NCBI GenBank assembly: GCA_900314345.1 | Contig: OMUX01000175.1 | Coordinates: forward strand, 1-10,023 | DNA length: 10,023 nt | Reading direction: 5' to 3' | From: an uncultured Erysipelotrichaceae bacterium | GTDB taxonomy: Bacteria; Bacillota_I; Bacilli_A; Erysipelotrichales; Erysipelotrichaceae | Part shown: piece after piece, positions 1,768 to 6,840 of the stretch | Position numbering within the stretch: the first letter of the stretch is position 1 | Layout: every line of letters starts with the position of its first letter | The notes under the pieces: generated by a model | The model's input: only the letters and a program-made list of their open reading frames with translations | Told to the model about the DNA's origin: nothing | Database searches by the model: none | Made by a program: the position numbers and the translations under genes

Positions 1768-2217
1768 TCAGAACATCTCCCTTGAATCAAGAAGGATTGT
1801 CACAGGCCCGTCATTGAGAAGACGCACCTTCATGTCCGCACCGAAGATGCCCTCTTCCACCTGTACACCCTGATCTCTCATATATGCATTGAAATACAGA
1901 TACAGCGGCTTTGCATGGTCCGGCTTCCCCGCATTGCTGAAGCTCGGCCGGTTGCCCTTCTTCGCATCCGCAAACAACGTGAACTGGGAAATGGAAAGCA
2001 CAGCACCTTCCACCTGTCCAAGCGACAGATTCATCTTGCCGTTTTCATCCTCAAAGATCCTGAGATGAATGATCTTGTCTGCCATTTTCCGGACAACAGC
2101 CTCATCATCTTCATCCGATATTCCGACCAGCAGAAGATATCCCCTGCCGATCTTTCCATGCACATCTCCGTCAATCGTGACAGATGCTTCGCTGACTCTC
2201 TGAACAACCACTTTCAT
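1768..2217 (-). CDS. dtd: D-aminoacyl-tRNA deacylase
   Basis: Dtd hydrolyses D-amino acids, and also mischarged glycine, from tRNA, as chiral proofreading in translation. The 149-residue protein is full length. The two family signatures are intact: SQFTL at 77-81, and NDGPVT at 135-140 containing the Gly-cisPro pair G137-P138. The N-terminus MKVVVQRVSEASV is canonical, so the ATG at 2217 is secure. There is no convincing Shine-Dalgarno sequence before it, only GAG close to the start. In many Bacillota dtd follows relA; here it follows a leucine-rich-repeat gene after 32 bases and precedes folD by two. A terminator-like hairpin and a TATACT hexamer in the upstream gap suggest it may begin a separate transcription unit. 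Confidence 0.97.
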   Translation of the reverse strand: MKVVVQRVSEASVTIDGDVHGKIGRGYLLLVGISDEDDEAVVRKMADKIIHLRIFEDENGKMNLSLGQVEGAVLSISQFTLFADAKKGNRPSFSNAGKPDHAKPLYLYFNAYMRDQGVQVEEGIFGADMKVRLLNDGPVTILLDSREMF

Positions 2218-2226
2218 ATCTCAGTA

Positions 2227-2232
2227 AGTATA
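2227..2232 (-). promoter_or_regulatory. Possible -10 element for dtd
   Basis: TATACT on the minus strand lies nine bases before the dtd ATG. A weak -35 candidate (CTGACT) lies about 15 bases upstream. If used, the transcript would begin within about three bases of the start codon, which would agree with the missing Shine-Dalgarno sequence. The -35 is poor and the assignment is tentative. Confidence 0.25.
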
Positions 2233-2275
2233 ACCAAGAAAAGCAGGAGTCAGAGCTCAAAGCTGTCTTCCTGCT
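2233..2275 (-). terminator. Possible intrinsic terminator at the end of the LRR gene
   Basis: In the minus-strand RNA, AGCAGGA (2275-2269) can pair with TCCTGCT (2248-2242). An inner AGCT-TTG-AGCT hairpin lies between them, and TTTCTT follows. The structure spans the stop codon of the LRR gene. The stem is short and interrupted by internal loops, so it may only partly terminate transcription before dtd, or be chance. Confidence 0.35.
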
Positions 2276-3536
2276 GTCCTGATGATGCCTTGATGATTCT
2301 TGCCGTACATTCCCGGCTGCCTGCCTCTTCACAGATCCTGAGACACGCATCAATAGCTTCTGTCTGTATGATGTCAAGATCCAGCATACCCTGCACACTG
2401 TCCGCATCATCCAGCGCCGCGCTTTCCTTCACGCACTCTTCCAGATGTTCCTTCAGGATCGCACGGAATGCCTCTGCATGTTCTTCCTTCAGATCCTTCG
2501 GTTCCAGAAGCCTGTGCACCATCATCCGCACACGGTCTGCTGTAATCAGTCCCACGGACAGCTTCCGGTCATATTCCTCAATGTCATACCGCTTCCCGTT
2601 CCTGCCAAAGCCGCTGACAAGATCCGGTCCCAGAACCGTGCCGCTTCTTGGAAACAGAAGATGGTATCCGTCAATCCACGCTTCCTTCATGGGGTTTCCA
2701 TAGAAGGCATCCGGATGAATCCGCTTCACGGTTTCATTTATCACAAGACTTTCAATGCCACAGCAGCGGCAGGCACCTGTTCCGATTTCAGTGATGTCTG
2801 AGGGAACACTCAGATGAACATCATGTCCGCCATAAAGGACCAGCTCCAGACCGTCCTCCTTCTTCTGCAGAAGACTGCCATCCACAAGGAAGACATGATC
2901 ATTGTCATGTGCCTCAAAGACCATGGCGTTTCTTCTTGCCATCATGCCAAGACCGGATGCCTGCAGGGCATTCTCTTCAATCTCCTTCAAGGAAGCCGGA
3001 AGGATGACATGCTTCAGAGAAGAGGCGTTATGAAATGCCTCTGTCCTGATAGTCACGGTTCCTTCCTTGACTGCATAGCGTTCTTCTTGATGATGTCCGC
3101 ATACACCGCAGAGTTCATATCCATCCTCTGCCTTATGGTAAATACCGTATCCATCGCTGAAATAGTACGGATTGGCTTCATCAATATCCAGATCCGGCTC
3201 CATCACACCGATGCCTTCCATCTGTCTGACACCGGCAGGAACATGCACGGTTTCAAGATCTGTCATAGCCGCAAATTCACGTCCAAGGAATTCCAGGGAC
3301 TCTGAAAGCACAAGTTCATGCAAGGCAAAGCAGCCTTCAAAGCATGCCTCTTCAATGACCTTCACACCTTCCGGAACAACAACCCGCTCCAGTGCCATGC
3401 CATGATCAAAGAACATACGCTTTCCTAGACAGCGTACCTTCTTCCCTTCCATGGCTTCCGGAATCAGAAGGTCTGTCTCTTCTCCCTCATAGCCTGTAAG
3501 ACGGATCCCGTCTTCATACGGTTCAAAGGAGAACAT
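2250..3536 (-). CDS. Cytoplasmic BspA-type leucine-rich-repeat protein of a MoxR/VWA cassette
   Basis: This 428-residue protein has two parts. Residues 1 to about 310 carry irregular LRR_5 (BspA/TpLRR-like) repeats, for example LERVVVPEGVKVIEEACFEG, LKHVILPASLKEIEENAL and IESLVINETVKRIHPDAFYG. Two intervening NPYYFSDGYGIYHK / FLVDGSLLQKK segments are typical of such arrays. From about 315 to the end the sequence becomes acidic and helical (LLEPKDLKEEHAEAFRAIL...), resembling a helical-repeat tail. There is no signal peptide, anchor or sorting motif, unlike secreted BspA proteins, so it is probably cytoplasmic. Its ATG shares one base with the ATPase stop (TGATG), and GGAG lies five bases upstream. 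This implies translational coupling, and a role as partner, adaptor or target-recognition subunit of the ATPase/VWA pair is an inference. Exact function is unknown. Confidence 0.85.
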   Translation of the reverse strand: MFSFEPYEDGIRLTGYEGEETDLLIPEAMEGKKVRCLGKRMFFDHGMALERVVVPEGVKVIEEACFEGCFALHELVLSESLEFLGREFAAMTDLETVHVPAGVRQMEGIGVMEPDLDIDEANPYYFSDGYGIYHKAEDGYELCGVCGHHQEERYAVKEGTVTIRTEAFHNASSLKHVILPASLKEIEENALQASGLGMMARRNAMVFEAHDNDHVFLVDGSLLQKKEDGLELVLYGGHDVHLSVPSDITEIGTGACRCCGIESLVINETVKRIHPDAFYGNPMKEAWIDGYHLLFPRSGTVLGPDLVSGFGRNGKRYDIEEYDRKLSVGLITADRVRMMVHRLLEPKDLKEEHAEAFRAILKEHLEECVKESAALDDADSVQGMLDLDIIQTEAIDACLRICEEAGSRECTARIIKASSGQQEDSFEL

Positions 3537-5071
3537 CAGATCTCCATGGATCCCTGGTTCAGGGCATTGAGTTCCTGCACACGCTGGGTCAGTGTTTCAG
3601 AACGTCTGGAAAGCATCAGGGATTCACTGTACTTCTCATAAGCTTCGTTCGGATGCAGGGCAAGGAACCTTGCGGAGGAAAGGCTTGCCGTTAACTGTGT
3701 CACAGCCACAAGCATCTCCTGGTCCCCATAGTATGCACTGATATAGTCAAACATCGCATCCAGTTCATCACTGATGTGCTTCACTTCAGACTTCATGGCA
3801 AGAACACTGCCGTCAAAGGACTTCTTCAGCACCGCAAACTGTTTCTTTCCGCTTCTTGCATTCTCTGCCTTGAAGCCATGCAGGTTCTGATGAATGAATG
3901 ACTGCTGCAGCTGGATGATGCGCTTCGACTCTGTGGAAAGACCTCTGCTGCTTTCCCGCTTTGCCATCTCATTCTTCATCCAGTCACTGTATTCCTGCAG
4001 TCTTCCTTCCACATCACAGTCAGGATTGCCCTGTACCTCTGCCTTGATCTTCCTGAGCTGCTTCAATAACAGAGACAGTCCGTCATTCCATGTCATGACA
4101 TCACTGATCTCCGGCATGACGGAGGAAAGCATCAGGGATACAACACTGACCTTTTCATCAAAGGCAGCCTTTGTGCTTCTCTCCTTGATCTCCTGTGACA
4201 CATTGCCCTTGAGAATCTCCGGAATCTGATAGTCGCTCCGGTACTTCACAAACAGGTCATAGTAGGCAGAGAAATCCGCCGCAATCTCTTCATCAGCGAT
4301 ATATTCACCGATCAATGTTTCTGTCACCGGATAGTCCTTTTCCTCATACAGATACAGGGTTTCGGAAAGATCCTCCCAGCCTCTGGCCGTGACATAGCTT
4401 CTTCCTTCCAGTGTTGTCTGAATGACATAGAAGTCCTCTTCATGCAGATCAAGGAATGTCTGGATGGAAGGATGGAGATGATTGCTCTCTGCATATGTCT
4501 TCCATACCTTGTAGTCCGGCTTGACGTTCAGTACCTTGAGACGGTCCAGGGTTGCCACATCAAACTCATGCACGGAACGGTTGAACTCCGGCGGGTTTCC
4601 TGCTGTTACCACAACCCACCCGTCCGGCAGCCTGTGGTTGCCGAAGGTCTTGTACTGCAAAAACTGCAGCATGCTTGGTCCTAATGTTTCAGAGACACAG
4701 TTGATCTCGTCCAGGAACAGGATGCCTTCCTTATTGCCGCTTTTTTCCATGTTTTCATACACGGAAGCCAGGATCTCGGACAGTGTGTACATACTGACAT
4801 CAAAGCTCTGTCCCTGATATTCCTTGTGCACGATATAAGGAAGACCAAGGGCTGACTGTCTTGTATGGTGCGTCATGGAATAGGATACCAGCGACAGGTT
4901 CAGTTCCTCGGCAATCTGCTTCATGATTGCGGTCTTGCCGATGCCCGGAGCACCGACCATGAACAAAGGTCTCTGCTTCTCCAGCGGAATCCTGTAGTTC
5001 CCGTATTCATCCTTCATCAGATATACGCTGACAGAACGCTTGATCTCTTCCTTCGCTTCCTGAATATTCAT
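3536..5071 (-). CDS. MoxR-type AAA+ ATPase with long helical C-terminal extension
   Basis: This 511-residue AAA+ protein is of the MoxR/dynein-related type; such ATPases remodel or load cofactors into partners together with VWA proteins. Visible: Walker A GAPGIGKT at 40-47, Walker B ILFLDE at 117-122 followed by IN, sensor 1 AGNP at 157-160, and the arginine-bearing ATLDRLK at 173-179. All look active. A lid domain follows to about 260. The remaining ~230 residues are predominantly helical and charged and have no recognised motif; classic MoxR proteins are only about 320 residues. Its ATG overlaps the VWA stop as ATGA and has a strong GGAGG seven bases upstream; its stop overlaps the LRR start. 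This arrangement argues that the three proteins act together. The substrate is unknown. Confidence 0.93.
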   Translation of the reverse strand: MNIQEAKEEIKRSVSVYLMKDEYGNYRIPLEKQRPLFMVGAPGIGKTAIMKQIAEELNLSLVSYSMTHHTRQSALGLPYIVHKEYQGQSFDVSMYTLSEILASVYENMEKSGNKEGILFLDEINCVSETLGPSMLQFLQYKTFGNHRLPDGWVVVTAGNPPEFNRSVHEFDVATLDRLKVLNVKPDYKVWKTYAESNHLHPSIQTFLDLHEEDFYVIQTTLEGRSYVTARGWEDLSETLYLYEEKDYPVTETLIGEYIADEEIAADFSAYYDLFVKYRSDYQIPEILKGNVSQEIKERSTKAAFDEKVSVVSLMLSSVMPEISDVMTWNDGLSLLLKQLRKIKAEVQGNPDCDVEGRLQEYSDWMKNEMAKRESSRGLSTESKRIIQLQQSFIHQNLHGFKAENARSGKKQFAVLKKSFDGSVLAMKSEVKHISDELDAMFDYISAYYGDQEMLVAVTQLTASLSSARFLALHPNEAYEKYSESLMLSRRSETLTQRVQELNALNQGSMEI

Positions 5072-6429
5072 GCCTGTTCCTCCATCTCATCGCTGTCCAG
5101 CATCAGCCGGATTGCCCATGGCGGCACCGGCATCGGTGCCTGCCCGTTGTCCATCATGATAAATGCTGTTTTATATGCCGGCATCTTCGCAGGATAGATG
5201 CCTTTTCCATCCGTAAAGTAAATCAATCCCCGCAGACGATGGATCTTCTTCCTTGCAATCTCATCATCCACCCTGGCAAACACCGGACGGAAATCCGTCC
5301 CGCCGAACCCCTTCAGCTCCAGGTCCTGCATATAGACATCAAACTCCTGTCTGCTGTGAATCACATCTTCCTTCTGGATCTTCGCATCACACTGAATGAT
5401 ATGAAGATTCATCCGGTCCGCAAAGGCATGTTCCGTATGCAGGATCTCCCATGTCTTCCTCAGGAAGTTCCTGACCAGTCTTCCCTGTACGGAACCGCTG
5501 GTGTCAATCGCCACCACAAAGTCAGAAATCAATGTATCATCACGGTATTCCAGAGGTTCAATCAACGGCATGTTTCCATAGAGTTCCATGCCATAGGTAT
5601 AGTACACAAGATCAAACTCATCCGGCGAGATCCGCATCACCTCATGCGGTGCGGCAAACTTCCGCAGGAATTCACTGTAATCCACACGCTTGTGTCTTCC
5701 AAGATGAAACTTCTCCGTGATTTCACCCGGCTGATATCCCTGTGTCTTCTCATAGGAACGGATCTCGTTCTTCACGGAGTTCTCCATTCCTTCCCATTTG
5801 TGCTTGTATTTGGTATGTGCTTCGCTTCTGGCAGACTGATCCTTGCGGTGCGTGAGCTTTCCTTCCGGATCATTGCCGAACCAGAAGTAATGCAGATCCT
5901 GATGGAACAGATCCGCCTGTTCCATGATGCCTTGTTTTTCATCCGGATGTGCCATCATCCACTGGTAGATATGATCCGCTCTTAAATCCTTCACCTTGTC
6001 CTGGATCCTGGATACAGCATTCCGGATATTCTCTTCTTCCTTTGTCTCGCAGCACTTCAGCTTCAATGAGGCAATCACAGACTCCACGGCAATATCACAG
6101 GCGCAGTTCCATTCATCCGGCTTCATGGCTGTATAGGAAAACATATGCATGTACAGACAGTGCAGGATGGCATGCAGATGCAGATGAACCAGTGCTGCAG
6201 GATCCTTCTGCCAGGTGTCCAGAACAATCTGCGGCATGGCATGGATATACTGCCCGTCCGTACCAAAGCCTACGGTCTCTTCACTCTTTCCGTTTTCCTC
6301 TCCATACCAGCGCACCGGCATCTCCACCAGCGCACGCGTAAGAAAAGGAAGCTCCGCAATCAGGGCAGACTGAGACCACTGCATCAGTTCCCCTGCCAGC
6401 TTCGCTTTCTGTTCCTTCAGATCATCCAT
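5068..6429 (-). CDS. VWA-domain protein with degenerate metallopeptidase-like N-terminus (DUF2201 type)
   Basis: This is the partner VWA protein of the adjacent MoxR ATPase. The C-terminal VWA-like domain has a metal-ion-dependent adhesion site: DTSGS at 309-313, GGTD at 376-379 and YFTDG at 404-408. The N-terminal half matches the putative metallopeptidase domain of DUF2201 proteins, but the usual HExxH(x4)H reads H86-A-I-L-H90(x4)H95, so the catalytic Glu is Ala. Peptidase activity is therefore doubtful, though metal binding may survive. The family role is thought to be an adaptor or chaperone paired with MoxR ATPases. Start choice: ATG at 6429 has no ribosome site but a TATAAT six bases upstream. 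An in-frame TTG at 6477, with GGGA seven bases upstream, would add 16 residues and is a real alternative. The protein is 453 residues from 6429. Confidence 0.9.
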   Translation of the reverse strand: MDDLKEQKAKLAGELMQWSQSALIAELPFLTRALVEMPVRWYGEENGKSEETVGFGTDGQYIHAMPQIVLDTWQKDPAALVHLHLHAILHCLYMHMFSYTAMKPDEWNCACDIAVESVIASLKLKCCETKEEENIRNAVSRIQDKVKDLRADHIYQWMMAHPDEKQGIMEQADLFHQDLHYFWFGNDPEGKLTHRKDQSARSEAHTKYKHKWEGMENSVKNEIRSYEKTQGYQPGEITEKFHLGRHKRVDYSEFLRKFAAPHEVMRISPDEFDLVYYTYGMELYGNMPLIEPLEYRDDTLISDFVVAIDTSGSVQGRLVRNFLRKTWEILHTEHAFADRMNLHIIQCDAKIQKEDVIHSRQEFDVYMQDLELKGFGGTDFRPVFARVDDEIARKKIHRLRGLIYFTDGKGIYPAKMPAYKTAFIMMDNGQAPMPVPPWAIRLMLDSDEMEEQA

Positions 6430-6435
6430 GGCACA

Positions 6436-6441
6436 ATTATA
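6436..6441 (-). promoter_or_regulatory. Possible internal -10 element for the VWA gene
   Basis: A perfect TATAAT on the minus strand lies six bases before the ATG at 6429, so transcription would start at the A of the start codon. No good -35 is seen 16-18 bases upstream. It may be chance, or may give the cassette its own promoter within the larger run of genes. Confidence 0.3.
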
Positions 6442-6495
6442 TCCGTACTCATGAATTCCATGTTCTGTGATGATCAAGACAATTTCCCTGTACCG

Positions 6496-6840
6496 TCAAT
6501 TCCTGGCAAACAAGGATCCAAGAGCACTGTTCAGCAGCGCAAGAATCAATGAAGCAATCAAAGCTGTTCCAAAACTGCTGAGATAGGAACCGGAAGACAT
6601 ATGAAAGGCAATGGAGAGTACCGCACCGTTAATGATCCAGGAGAAAAGACCAAACGAAAGAATTGTGATCGGCAATGACAATACCTTCAGTATCGGCTTG
6701 ATCGTCATATTCAGTACGGTCAGAGCCAGTGCAGTTGCAATCAAGGAACCGGAATCCGAAAAGCCAATGCCGGACATCAGGGCATCCACAACCCACAGAG
6801 AGATGCCGTTGACAAGCCACAGTCTCAGGAAATTCTTCAT
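6496..6840 (-). CDS. Holin-like four-helix membrane protein (Phage_holin_4_2 / YvlD type)
   Basis: This 114-residue, very hydrophobic protein has about four membrane segments (roughly 5-25, 33-50, 56-80 and 88-110). It carries the family's conserved features: NMTIKP at 44-49, LPITILSFGLF at 56-66 and N71. The family is named after mycobacteriophage holins but is widespread on bacterial chromosomes, where most members (such as YvlD) are not lytic and have no clear function. No endolysin or other phage gene is near, so I do not call it a phage holin. AAAGGAG lies seven bases before the ATG, which is four bases after the carboxypeptidase stop, so the two are almost certainly cotranscribed. A role in the envelope is likely from location only. 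Confidence 0.88.
   Translation of the reverse strand: MKNFLRLWLVNGISLWVVDALMSGIGFSDSGSLIATALALTVLNMTIKPILKVLSLPITILSFGLFSWIINGAVLSIAFHMSSGSYLSSFGTALIASLILALLNSALGSLFARN

Follow-up and report, generated by a model that had tools for sequence, protein, structure and literature searches.

A MoxR-like ATPase, a VWA protein and a leucine-rich repeat protein from one Erysipelotrichaceae locus: a dedicated third component and its possible role as adaptor

Why should the gene of a leucine-rich repeat (LRR) protein follow directly on those of a MoxR-type ATPase and its VWA partner? This question is raised by the window (the whole stretch of 10,023 nucleotides analysed here, contig OMUX01000175.1 of an uncultured Erysipelotrichaceae bacterium), in which three intact open reading frames (ORFs) are joined on the minus strand, as are all features of the window located below. 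These encode a VWA protein (5068-6429, 453 residues, ATG start; Pfam DUF2201_N and DUF2201), a MoxR-like AAA+ ATPase (3536-5071, 511 residues; Pfam AAA_5) and the LRR protein, or third component (2250-3536, 428 residues; Pfam LRR_5). The VWA and ATPase genes share 4 nucleotides in an ATGA overlap (5068-5071), and the ATPase and LRR genes 1 nucleotide within TGATG (3534-3538), both junctions being just as the first-pass annotation of this DNA had read them. For the VWA gene, a longer alternative start at a TTG (6477) is possible. MoxR-type ATPases typically pair with VWA partners, by a mechanism that is poorly understood (PMC13036017; this and the other papers cited here by PMC number are drawn on through excerpts).

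Here, we propose that the three genes specify one cytoplasmic, ATP-driven remodelling machine, with the LRR protein as its dedicated and exchangeable adaptor, a reading that we hold to be evenly balanced between right and wrong. To our knowledge, how MoxR-VWA pairs choose their targets is poorly understood, and this choice would become approachable through a third protein that is modular, diverges fast, and can be recognised by its C-terminal module, with one motor served by different receptors.

Linkage of the third component to the MoxR-VWA pair

Named genome contigs were scanned with a profile of the ATPase, and from at least 586 confirmed relatives the best 80 loci were kept, the record titles of which are mostly Lachnospiraceae and Clostridiales. 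Sixteen third-component queries, taken from the window and its relatives and including two chosen by eye (from L070 and L084, which adjoin the pair and are unmatched by the window protein), were run against the gene chain of each locus (same strand, gaps of at most 150 bases) and against a background of 674 non-overlapping ORFs of at least 150 residues outside the chains. A third-component match lies inside the gene chain in 65 of the 80 named loci, as against 8 of the 674 flanking ORFs, three of these eight being adjacent copies just beyond the gap limit (L088, L107, and L138). With wider gaps and a profile of the C-terminal region (see below), a third component is found beside the pair in 69 of the 80 loci. 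The linkage of an LRR-type third component to the MoxR-VWA pair is not chance. The first-pass annotation had taken the LRR protein for a dedicated third component, and this is well supported by the comparison of 69/80 with 8/674; far from being rare, adjacency to the pair is what 69 of the loci display.

In a whole set of 108 loci (the window, 15 loci of relatives, the 80 named loci, six second systems, one probable duplicate, and five records from phage collections), 95 carry a third component and 13 do not, with the source loci of the queries counted in. Among the 13, the contig ends within 93 bases past the ATPase gene in L074 and L106 (the same locus) and in L136, while L150 has three third-component genes divergently upstream, L163 has one about 7 kb off on the opposite strand, and in L177 the third component precedes the VWA gene, and the ATPase gene is set apart by two antisense genes. 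The remaining seven are taken up where the adaptor reading is weighed.

Co-occurrence was also counted across whole genomes. Of 60 relatives, 13 (that of the window included) have the ATPase and the same 13 the VWA protein, and at an E value of 0.001 the C-terminal module is found in 10 of these 13 and in 1 of the 47 genomes without the ATPase (G010). The module of G015 is on a different contig from the pair, and the three ATPase genomes without a module match include G005, whose adjacent LRR protein is missed by the profile. G010 has no ATPase of the family and holds two LRR-type ORFs with weak module matches (L271:327-4377). Among 295 genomes of the window's phylum, the ATPase and the module occur in the same two, side by side at all three loci; the system is rare in this sample, and the co-occurrence there is by itself weak evidence, one of the two genomes being the window's own and both having contributed to the profiles. 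Moreover, a genome-wide module search (model built from 42 ends) of 41 genomes picked from loci with a third component yielded a total of 54 match rows, and in 41 of the 41 one match lies within 3.5 kb of the ATPase (14 of these loci are absent from the model; the match compared is not the best-scoring one in G064 and is one of two equal ones in G097).

The order of the genes varies. With T for the third component, V for the VWA gene, and M for the ATPase gene, the raw labels are VMT 68, TVM 18, VM 12, VTM 4, MT 2, TM 2, TMT 1, and M 1. Mapping the three main orders of 93 labelled rows onto a quickly built maximum-likelihood tree (104 ATPases) takes 6 changes, a number that holds for this tree and implies no firm minimum. 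Dropped from the 108 rows were L074 (duplicate of L106), L233 (probably a duplicate of L148), L125 (orientation misread), and L175 (ATPase shorter than 400 residues). Seven labels were set by hand, namely L177 as TVM, L106, L091, L130, and L143 as VMT, and L149 and L159 as TM; of these, L106 assumes a contig join (the ATPase end and the LRR gene being on another contig of the genome, L073), and L091 and L130 were labelled without a recognised VWA gene.

A shared C-terminal module behind changing front parts

In the window LRR protein, LRR_5 (8.9e-20) is the sole Pfam family above its cut-off. An AlphaFold2 model built from 17 sequences (mean predicted local distance difference test, pLDDT, of 90.5 over the whole protein) gives an LRR solenoid to about residue 300, helices at residues 302-419, and a disordered end at residues 422-428. 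Accordingly, three parts can be placed on the DNA: the BspA-type LRR_5 solenoid (residues 2-300; 2637-3533), which both Pfam and the model delimit, a C-terminal helical module common to third components (residues 333-419; 2280-2540; helices H333-344 to H408-419 in the model), and the tail, which ends in EDSFEL and has a pLDDT below 50 (residues 422-428; 2253-2273). The top Foldseek matches of the model are BspA-type LRR proteins. A simple hydropathy rule detects no hydrophobic stretch in the protein, at its N-terminus or elsewhere, which agrees with the earlier claim that it lacks a signal peptide; among 74 third components, the same rule finds such a stretch at the N-terminus in one and anywhere in three.

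Third components vary in length and repeats, and what they have in common is a helical stretch of about 85 residues that ends in a short acidic-hydrophobic tail. A profile of this region was built from 74 ends, the window's included, with 10 of 84 candidates excluded as lacking the module, being cut off, or being large upstream LRR proteins (two each from L077, L143, and L149, and one each from L092, L095, L159, and L161). It matches ORFs in 69 of the 80 named loci, although 60 of these 80 are themselves sources of the profile, and 6 of its 73 matches are far from the ATPase or on the opposite strand. The third component is thus defined less by its LRRs than by the C-terminal helical module and flexible tail. 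In fact, the part in front of the module changes: it is LRR only in the window protein, in which a Pfam search found no DUF4132, ankyrin repeats without LRR in L144, and LRR with DUF4132, with or without DUF6273, in L070, L084, and L270. Of these last, DUF4132 is above its cut-off and the LRR_5 match under it in L070, the DUF4132 match of L084 is under the cut-off (24.1 vs 27 bits), and both families are above cut-off, in two LRR proteins, in L270. In one second system, the third component is 1578 residues long and its module match is internal (L175:2150-6886).

Net acidity is a trait of third-component tails (+2.5 over 16 residues, vs -0.2 in other ORFs), and a tail motif, written post hoc from inspected tails, fits 63 of 74 tails vs 47 of 710 control ORFs (of at least 250 residues, some perhaps not genes). 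As for rates of change, the median pairwise identity over 57 complete triples falls from 57.2% (ATPase) through 47.0% (VWA protein) to 31.7% (LRR part) and 29.4% (last 95 residues), and the ranking of ATPase over VWA protein over third component is kept in every bin of ATPase identity. The third component is the fastest-diverging of the three proteins. In the bins of 45-55, 55-65, 65-75, and 75-90% ATPase identity, the LRR part has 21.4, 34.6, 39.6, and 59.9% and the C-terminal part 20.0, 36.2, 45.3, and 60.0% identity; the idea that the module changes more slowly than the LRRs is therefore only partly borne out, in the two middle bins.

Copies of the module also occur away from a pair. Of 12 second copies, six belong to second complete systems (L172, L173, and L175-L178), five are LRR proteins with no pair on about 10 kb (L168-L171 and L174), and one (G097), which adjoins a pair, perhaps stems from a duplicate contig. 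In genome G004, three LRR-module genes form a tandem array (L269:342-4204), and the 12 kb covered there contain no pair. The C-terminal profile thereby finds pairless copies in other genomes, in these five regions and in G004. Also in G004, two LRR-DUF4132 proteins are encoded beside a TIR_2 protein (L270:1033-7050), on a contig that holds a VWA-ATPase pair as well.

The VWA-ATPase pair, the proposed machine, and its alternatives

For the two partners of the third component, the first-pass annotation had claimed a MoxR AAA+ ATPase with intact Walker motifs and a VWA protein with an intact metal site. The Walker motifs stood: Walker A (GAPGIGKT, residues 40-47; 4931-4954) is present in 105 of 105 ATPases, as is, by a loose pattern, Walker B (LFLDE, residues 118-122; 4706-4720). 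The family name was refined, since AAA_5 passes its Pfam cut-off (3.6e-9) and AAA_3 is below (17.0 bits, cut-off 27), and we therefore prefer MoxR-like to MoxR. Moreover, a THHTRQS signature of the ATPase subfamily (residues 67-73; 4853-4873) is invariant in 16 of 16 aligned ATPases and present in 103 of the 105 of the wider set.

The VWA protein matches DUF2201_N (1.1e-7) and the VWA-like DUF2201 (1e-13), the latter domain spanning residues 305-444 of 453, with no effector domain after it in the window protein. Its metal ion-dependent adhesion site (MIDAS) is indeed intact, with the DTSGS motif (residues 309-313; 5491-5505) completed by T378 and D407. None of the five residues (D309, S311, S313, T378, and D407) varies among 32 aligned VWA proteins, and the DxSxS pattern is seen in 97 of 100 family members. 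A structure model from 32 sequences (mean pLDDT 81, predicted template modelling score 0.59) matches VWA domains in a fold search, and among its weaker matches is human MDN1-MIDAS bound to NLE1 (rank 32, low TM-score). Against solved structures, the profiles of the ATPase, the VWA protein, and the C-terminal region yielded matches that are either weak or to AAA+ P-loops, and no NCBIfam model reaches its cut-off for any of the three proteins.

At its N-terminus, the VWA protein has a zincin-like domain with a match to a putative metallopeptidase domain; it contains HxxxHxxxxH (residues 86-95; 6145-6174) and no Glu after the first His, so that the window protein reads HAILH at the position expected for HExxH. 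Residues H86, H90, H95, D112, E116, D178, and H180 are invariant in 32 of 32 aligned proteins, none of which has Glu after H86. By pattern search of the wider bacterial set, HxxxHxxxxH is found in 98 of 100 and HExxH in 1 of 100 family members, and HExxH in 34 of the 52 VWA-profile matches of at least 250 residues in viral contigs. Because the histidines are kept and the Glu is absent, while most of the viral matches have HExxH and a jumbo-phage protein (see below) is of the metallopeptidase type, the domain would probably still bind metal but by now be inactive.

How might these parts work together? That the LRR protein might recognise the target on which the ATPase acts was already suggested by the first-pass annotation, and our proposal takes this up. 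The MoxR-like protein would assemble as an AAA+ ring, and the VWA protein would be its coupling partner through the MIDAS site, with the zincin-like domain lacking the catalytic Glu alongside. The repeat domain of the LRR protein would bind a target protein, its C-terminal module and flexible acidic-hydrophobic tail would dock on the VWA-ATPase pair, most simply by supplying an acidic side chain to the MIDAS metal, and the bound target would then be remodelled by ATP hydrolysis. In proposing an adaptor that docks on the VWA protein by tail or module while its repeats hold the target, we draw on the analogy of NorQ/NorD, for which the VWA domain is reported to occupy the ATPase ring and to extend a finger into the pore, MIDAS substitutions in NorD abolish the activity of the target enzyme with NorQ binding retained, and acidic residues of the target enzyme are the proposed MIDAS ligands (PMC9976466; PMC13036017). 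A wider picture, which we advance tentatively and consider possible though doubtful, is that one MoxR-VWA motor is served by several interchangeable adaptors, encoded in the operon and elsewhere, with a shared docking module, an acidic tail as MIDAS ligand, and a swapped, fast-diverging recognition part (LRR, ankyrin, or DUF4132), the zincin-like domain having turned from a phage-type peptidase into a pseudo-enzyme.

Several observations weigh against the adaptor reading. At seven loci (L120, L125, L140, L151, L154, L162, and L166) no third component is seen, the contigs of L151, L162, and L166 starting within or just before the VWA gene. The LRR proteins that adjoin the pairs of L077 and L161 are exceptions without the module, and in L149, L150, and L178 the module is weak, with LRRs after it. 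The tail motif, besides being post hoc, is in its strict form unmatched in 11 of the 74 tails, the EDSFEL tail of the window among these. Module and LRR part have similar overall rates of divergence (29.4 vs 31.7% identity), and so no slow docking surface is demonstrated. Lastly, well-supported branches alone force fewer changes of gene order than the whole tree does (VMT 3, TVM 1, and VTM 2, each label vs the rest).

The alternative that survives best takes the LRR protein as a client, which the ATPase-VWA pair would mature, activate, or disassemble as NorQ/NorD does its target enzyme. A dedicated client would account for the linkage and the shared C-terminal module just as well, NorQ/NorD serve one dedicated target according to the excerpts on them, and several related clients per pair would explain the pairless copies. 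Against this, the pairing of one C-terminal module with front folds unrelated to each other is more suggestive of exchangeable recognition parts, and we know of no obvious need of BspA-type repeat proteins for cofactor insertion or assembly. The pairless copies, the tandem array, and the swapped fronts fit an adaptor better than a single client, although they may instead reflect a set of related clients. We regard the client reading as somewhat unlikely, and continue to favour the adaptor.

Less probable still, and in our estimation rather improbable, is an immune-like ternary system in which the LRR protein would act as the sensor of an invader and the threshold of the response would be set by the MoxR-VWA pair, as proposed for VMAP and iSTAND. 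The MoxR-vWA ternary conflict systems of PMC7159879, with VMAP, iSTAND, FtsH, or beta-propeller components, to which PMC8195603 adds iSTAND2 and TERNS3, have a core pair of the same kind; moreover, the third component here diverges fastest and has its front part swapped, and the distribution is patchy (13 of 60 relatives), with several lineages in one genus. Two neighbours, each a single case, are suggestive, these being the TIR_2 protein of G004 and a GmrSD-type gene of G040. The latter is a restriction gene that adjoins the VWA-ATPase pair of L084 (L084:1275-6804), where the VWA frame is split into two ORFs. In contrast, a Pfam search found no effector domain on the proteins of the window, PADLOC gives no match for the LRR and VWA proteins and only weak matches over the P-loop part of the ATPase, and defence genes are not enriched beside the cassette. 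For this last comparison, ORFs of 160-420 residues around the 80 named loci were drawn at random, 110 of 185 near genes (within 2.5 kb) and 110 of 188 far genes (beyond 4.5 kb). At an E value of 1e-20, the near genes match 2 PADLOC families, with at most 5 of the 110 genes involved, and four of these matches are to PDC-S33, one member of which, viewed in full, is a RelA/SpoT-type protein. The far genes match 58 PADLOC models, many on the same few proteins; among the matches listed, mad3 is the commonest family (4 genes), and BREX, AbiLi, and methyltransferase models are also matched. A defence-island reading is thus unsupported in this sample.

That LRR_5 genes, common in such genomes (33 of the 60 relatives have some match to the LRR protein), are merely chance neighbours of the pair we reject as next to impossible, as adjacency in the census lies far above background (65 to 69 of 80 beside the pair vs 8 of 674 ORFs outside chains), the linkage persists through changes of gene order, and the module yields just those 54 match rows in 41 whole genomes.

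Genomic setting and comparison with known systems

The window comes from an incomplete genome bin (2.28 Mb, 425 contigs). In the window, the minus-strand run of genes comprises a D-Ala-D-Ala carboxypeptidase-type gene, a small Phage_holin_4_2 protein, the VWA, ATPase, and LRR genes, dtd, folD, and DUF951, so that the site of the trio (2217-6840) is between the holin-type gene and dtd-folD-DUF951; the window has no Rfam match at gathering thresholds and no tRNA. A Dtd search covered 30 loci of the window's genus with a flank of at most about 1.5 kb each, and in 29 of the 29 other loci no trio gene lies beside dtd within that flank. The cassette is therefore missing from the window's site in the relatives examined; in seven of the 29, a gene of DacA or holin type lies 0.5-1.3 kb upstream of dtd, and the trio is absent. 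In the ATPase tree, the window and L106 fall inside sets of 14 and 20 V-M-T rows (Shimodaira-Hasegawa-like approximate likelihood ratio test, SH-aLRT, 97), whose other members come from genomes with the titles Lachnospiraceae, Eubacterium, or Clostridiales. In contrast, a T-V-M group of its own (support 100) is formed by eight loci from other genomes of the window's genus. This pattern points to transfer between lineages.

Viruses hold distant relatives of the pair. Among 54 viral loci with distant ATPases, 40 have a VWA match and none a match to the LRR queries or the C-terminal module, and a virus origin of the trio is not supported. Five short, unannotated records titled Bacteriophage sp. 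(human faeces; L234-L238), the fullest of 499 phage records with an ATPase match, carry the pair with an adjacent third ORF, four of these ORFs matching the C-terminal module (one being only 119 residues long) and one matching the third-component queries only. These records are marked UNVERIFIED and may be bacterial DNA.

What, then, is the trio akin to? The earlier statement that no function has been described for it agrees with our finding no description among the open-licence PMC papers searched by titles and abstract starts. As couples of an ATPase and a MIDAS-bearing VWA partner, RavA/ViaA and CbbQ/CbbO are comparable. NorQ/NorD is likewise such a remodelling couple, likened here by description rather than sequence; what differs is that an LRR protein with a shared C-terminal module is not mentioned in the excerpts on it. 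Closer in sequence is a phage pair, PHROG 1297 and 1314, which are relatives of the ATPase and the VWA protein, respectively (2.3e-43 and 1e-37); PHROG 1314 is labelled HNH endonuclease, and this label looks wrong. In a jumbo phage, a vWA domain fused to an N-terminal metallopeptidase domain is paired with MoxR (PMC7824862), which is the same succession of a metallopeptidase-type domain and a VWA domain as in the window protein, and we infer that such phages carry the PHROG 1297 and 1314 families. The phage pair differs in keeping HExxH in most of its VWA matches (34/52 vs 1/100 in the bacterial family, with HAILH in the window) and in having neither LRR queries nor module matched at its loci (0/54).

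The yehI-yehL-yehM-yehP-yehQ cluster of E. coli also brings together MoxR, VWA, and DUF4132 proteins, the last domain being found in some third components here. However, hhalign probabilities of 32 percent for the ATPase and 0.6 percent for the VWA protein make the likeness distant only, and close kinship with YehL and YehP is rejected. Moreover, YehP belongs to VWA_CoxE, the window LRR protein lacks DUF4132, and the LRR proteins gave no match to YehI in a profile comparison; what is left of the link to the yeh cluster is DUF4132 as a domain of some third components. LRR together with DUF4132 was noted before in LIC_12901 of Leptospira, an LRR-WGR-DUF4132 protein (PMC11674859). With BspA-type LRR proteins, the window LRR protein shares the LRR_5 repeats and fold. 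It differs from them by its helical module and tail and by the lack of a hydrophobic N-terminus, several of the solved relatives being named cell-surface proteins.

The nearest counterparts in design are the MoxR-vWA ternary conflict systems (PMC7159879; PMC8195603), which likewise set a dedicated third protein beside an adjacent MoxR-type ATPase and VWA protein. The systems of PMC7159879 are described as enriched among multicellular bacteria, and the 80 named loci here bear mostly Lachnospiraceae and Clostridiales titles. The Pfam domains found in third components here are LRR_5, Ank, DUF4132, and DUF6273, with none of VMAP, iSTAND, FtsH, or beta-propeller among them (no search with a VMAP-specific profile was made), and the text of PMC7159879, as excerpted, contains neither leucine nor DUF4132 and has a single LRR string, within a cited title. 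The trio of the window further differs in having no effector domain after the VWA domain and no enrichment of defence genes nearby, and the third component, be its front LRR, ankyrin, or DUF4132, brings a C-terminal module of its own. We thus place the trio as a variant within the MoxR-VWA kind rather than as a separate kind, one with a well-supported, dedicated third component.

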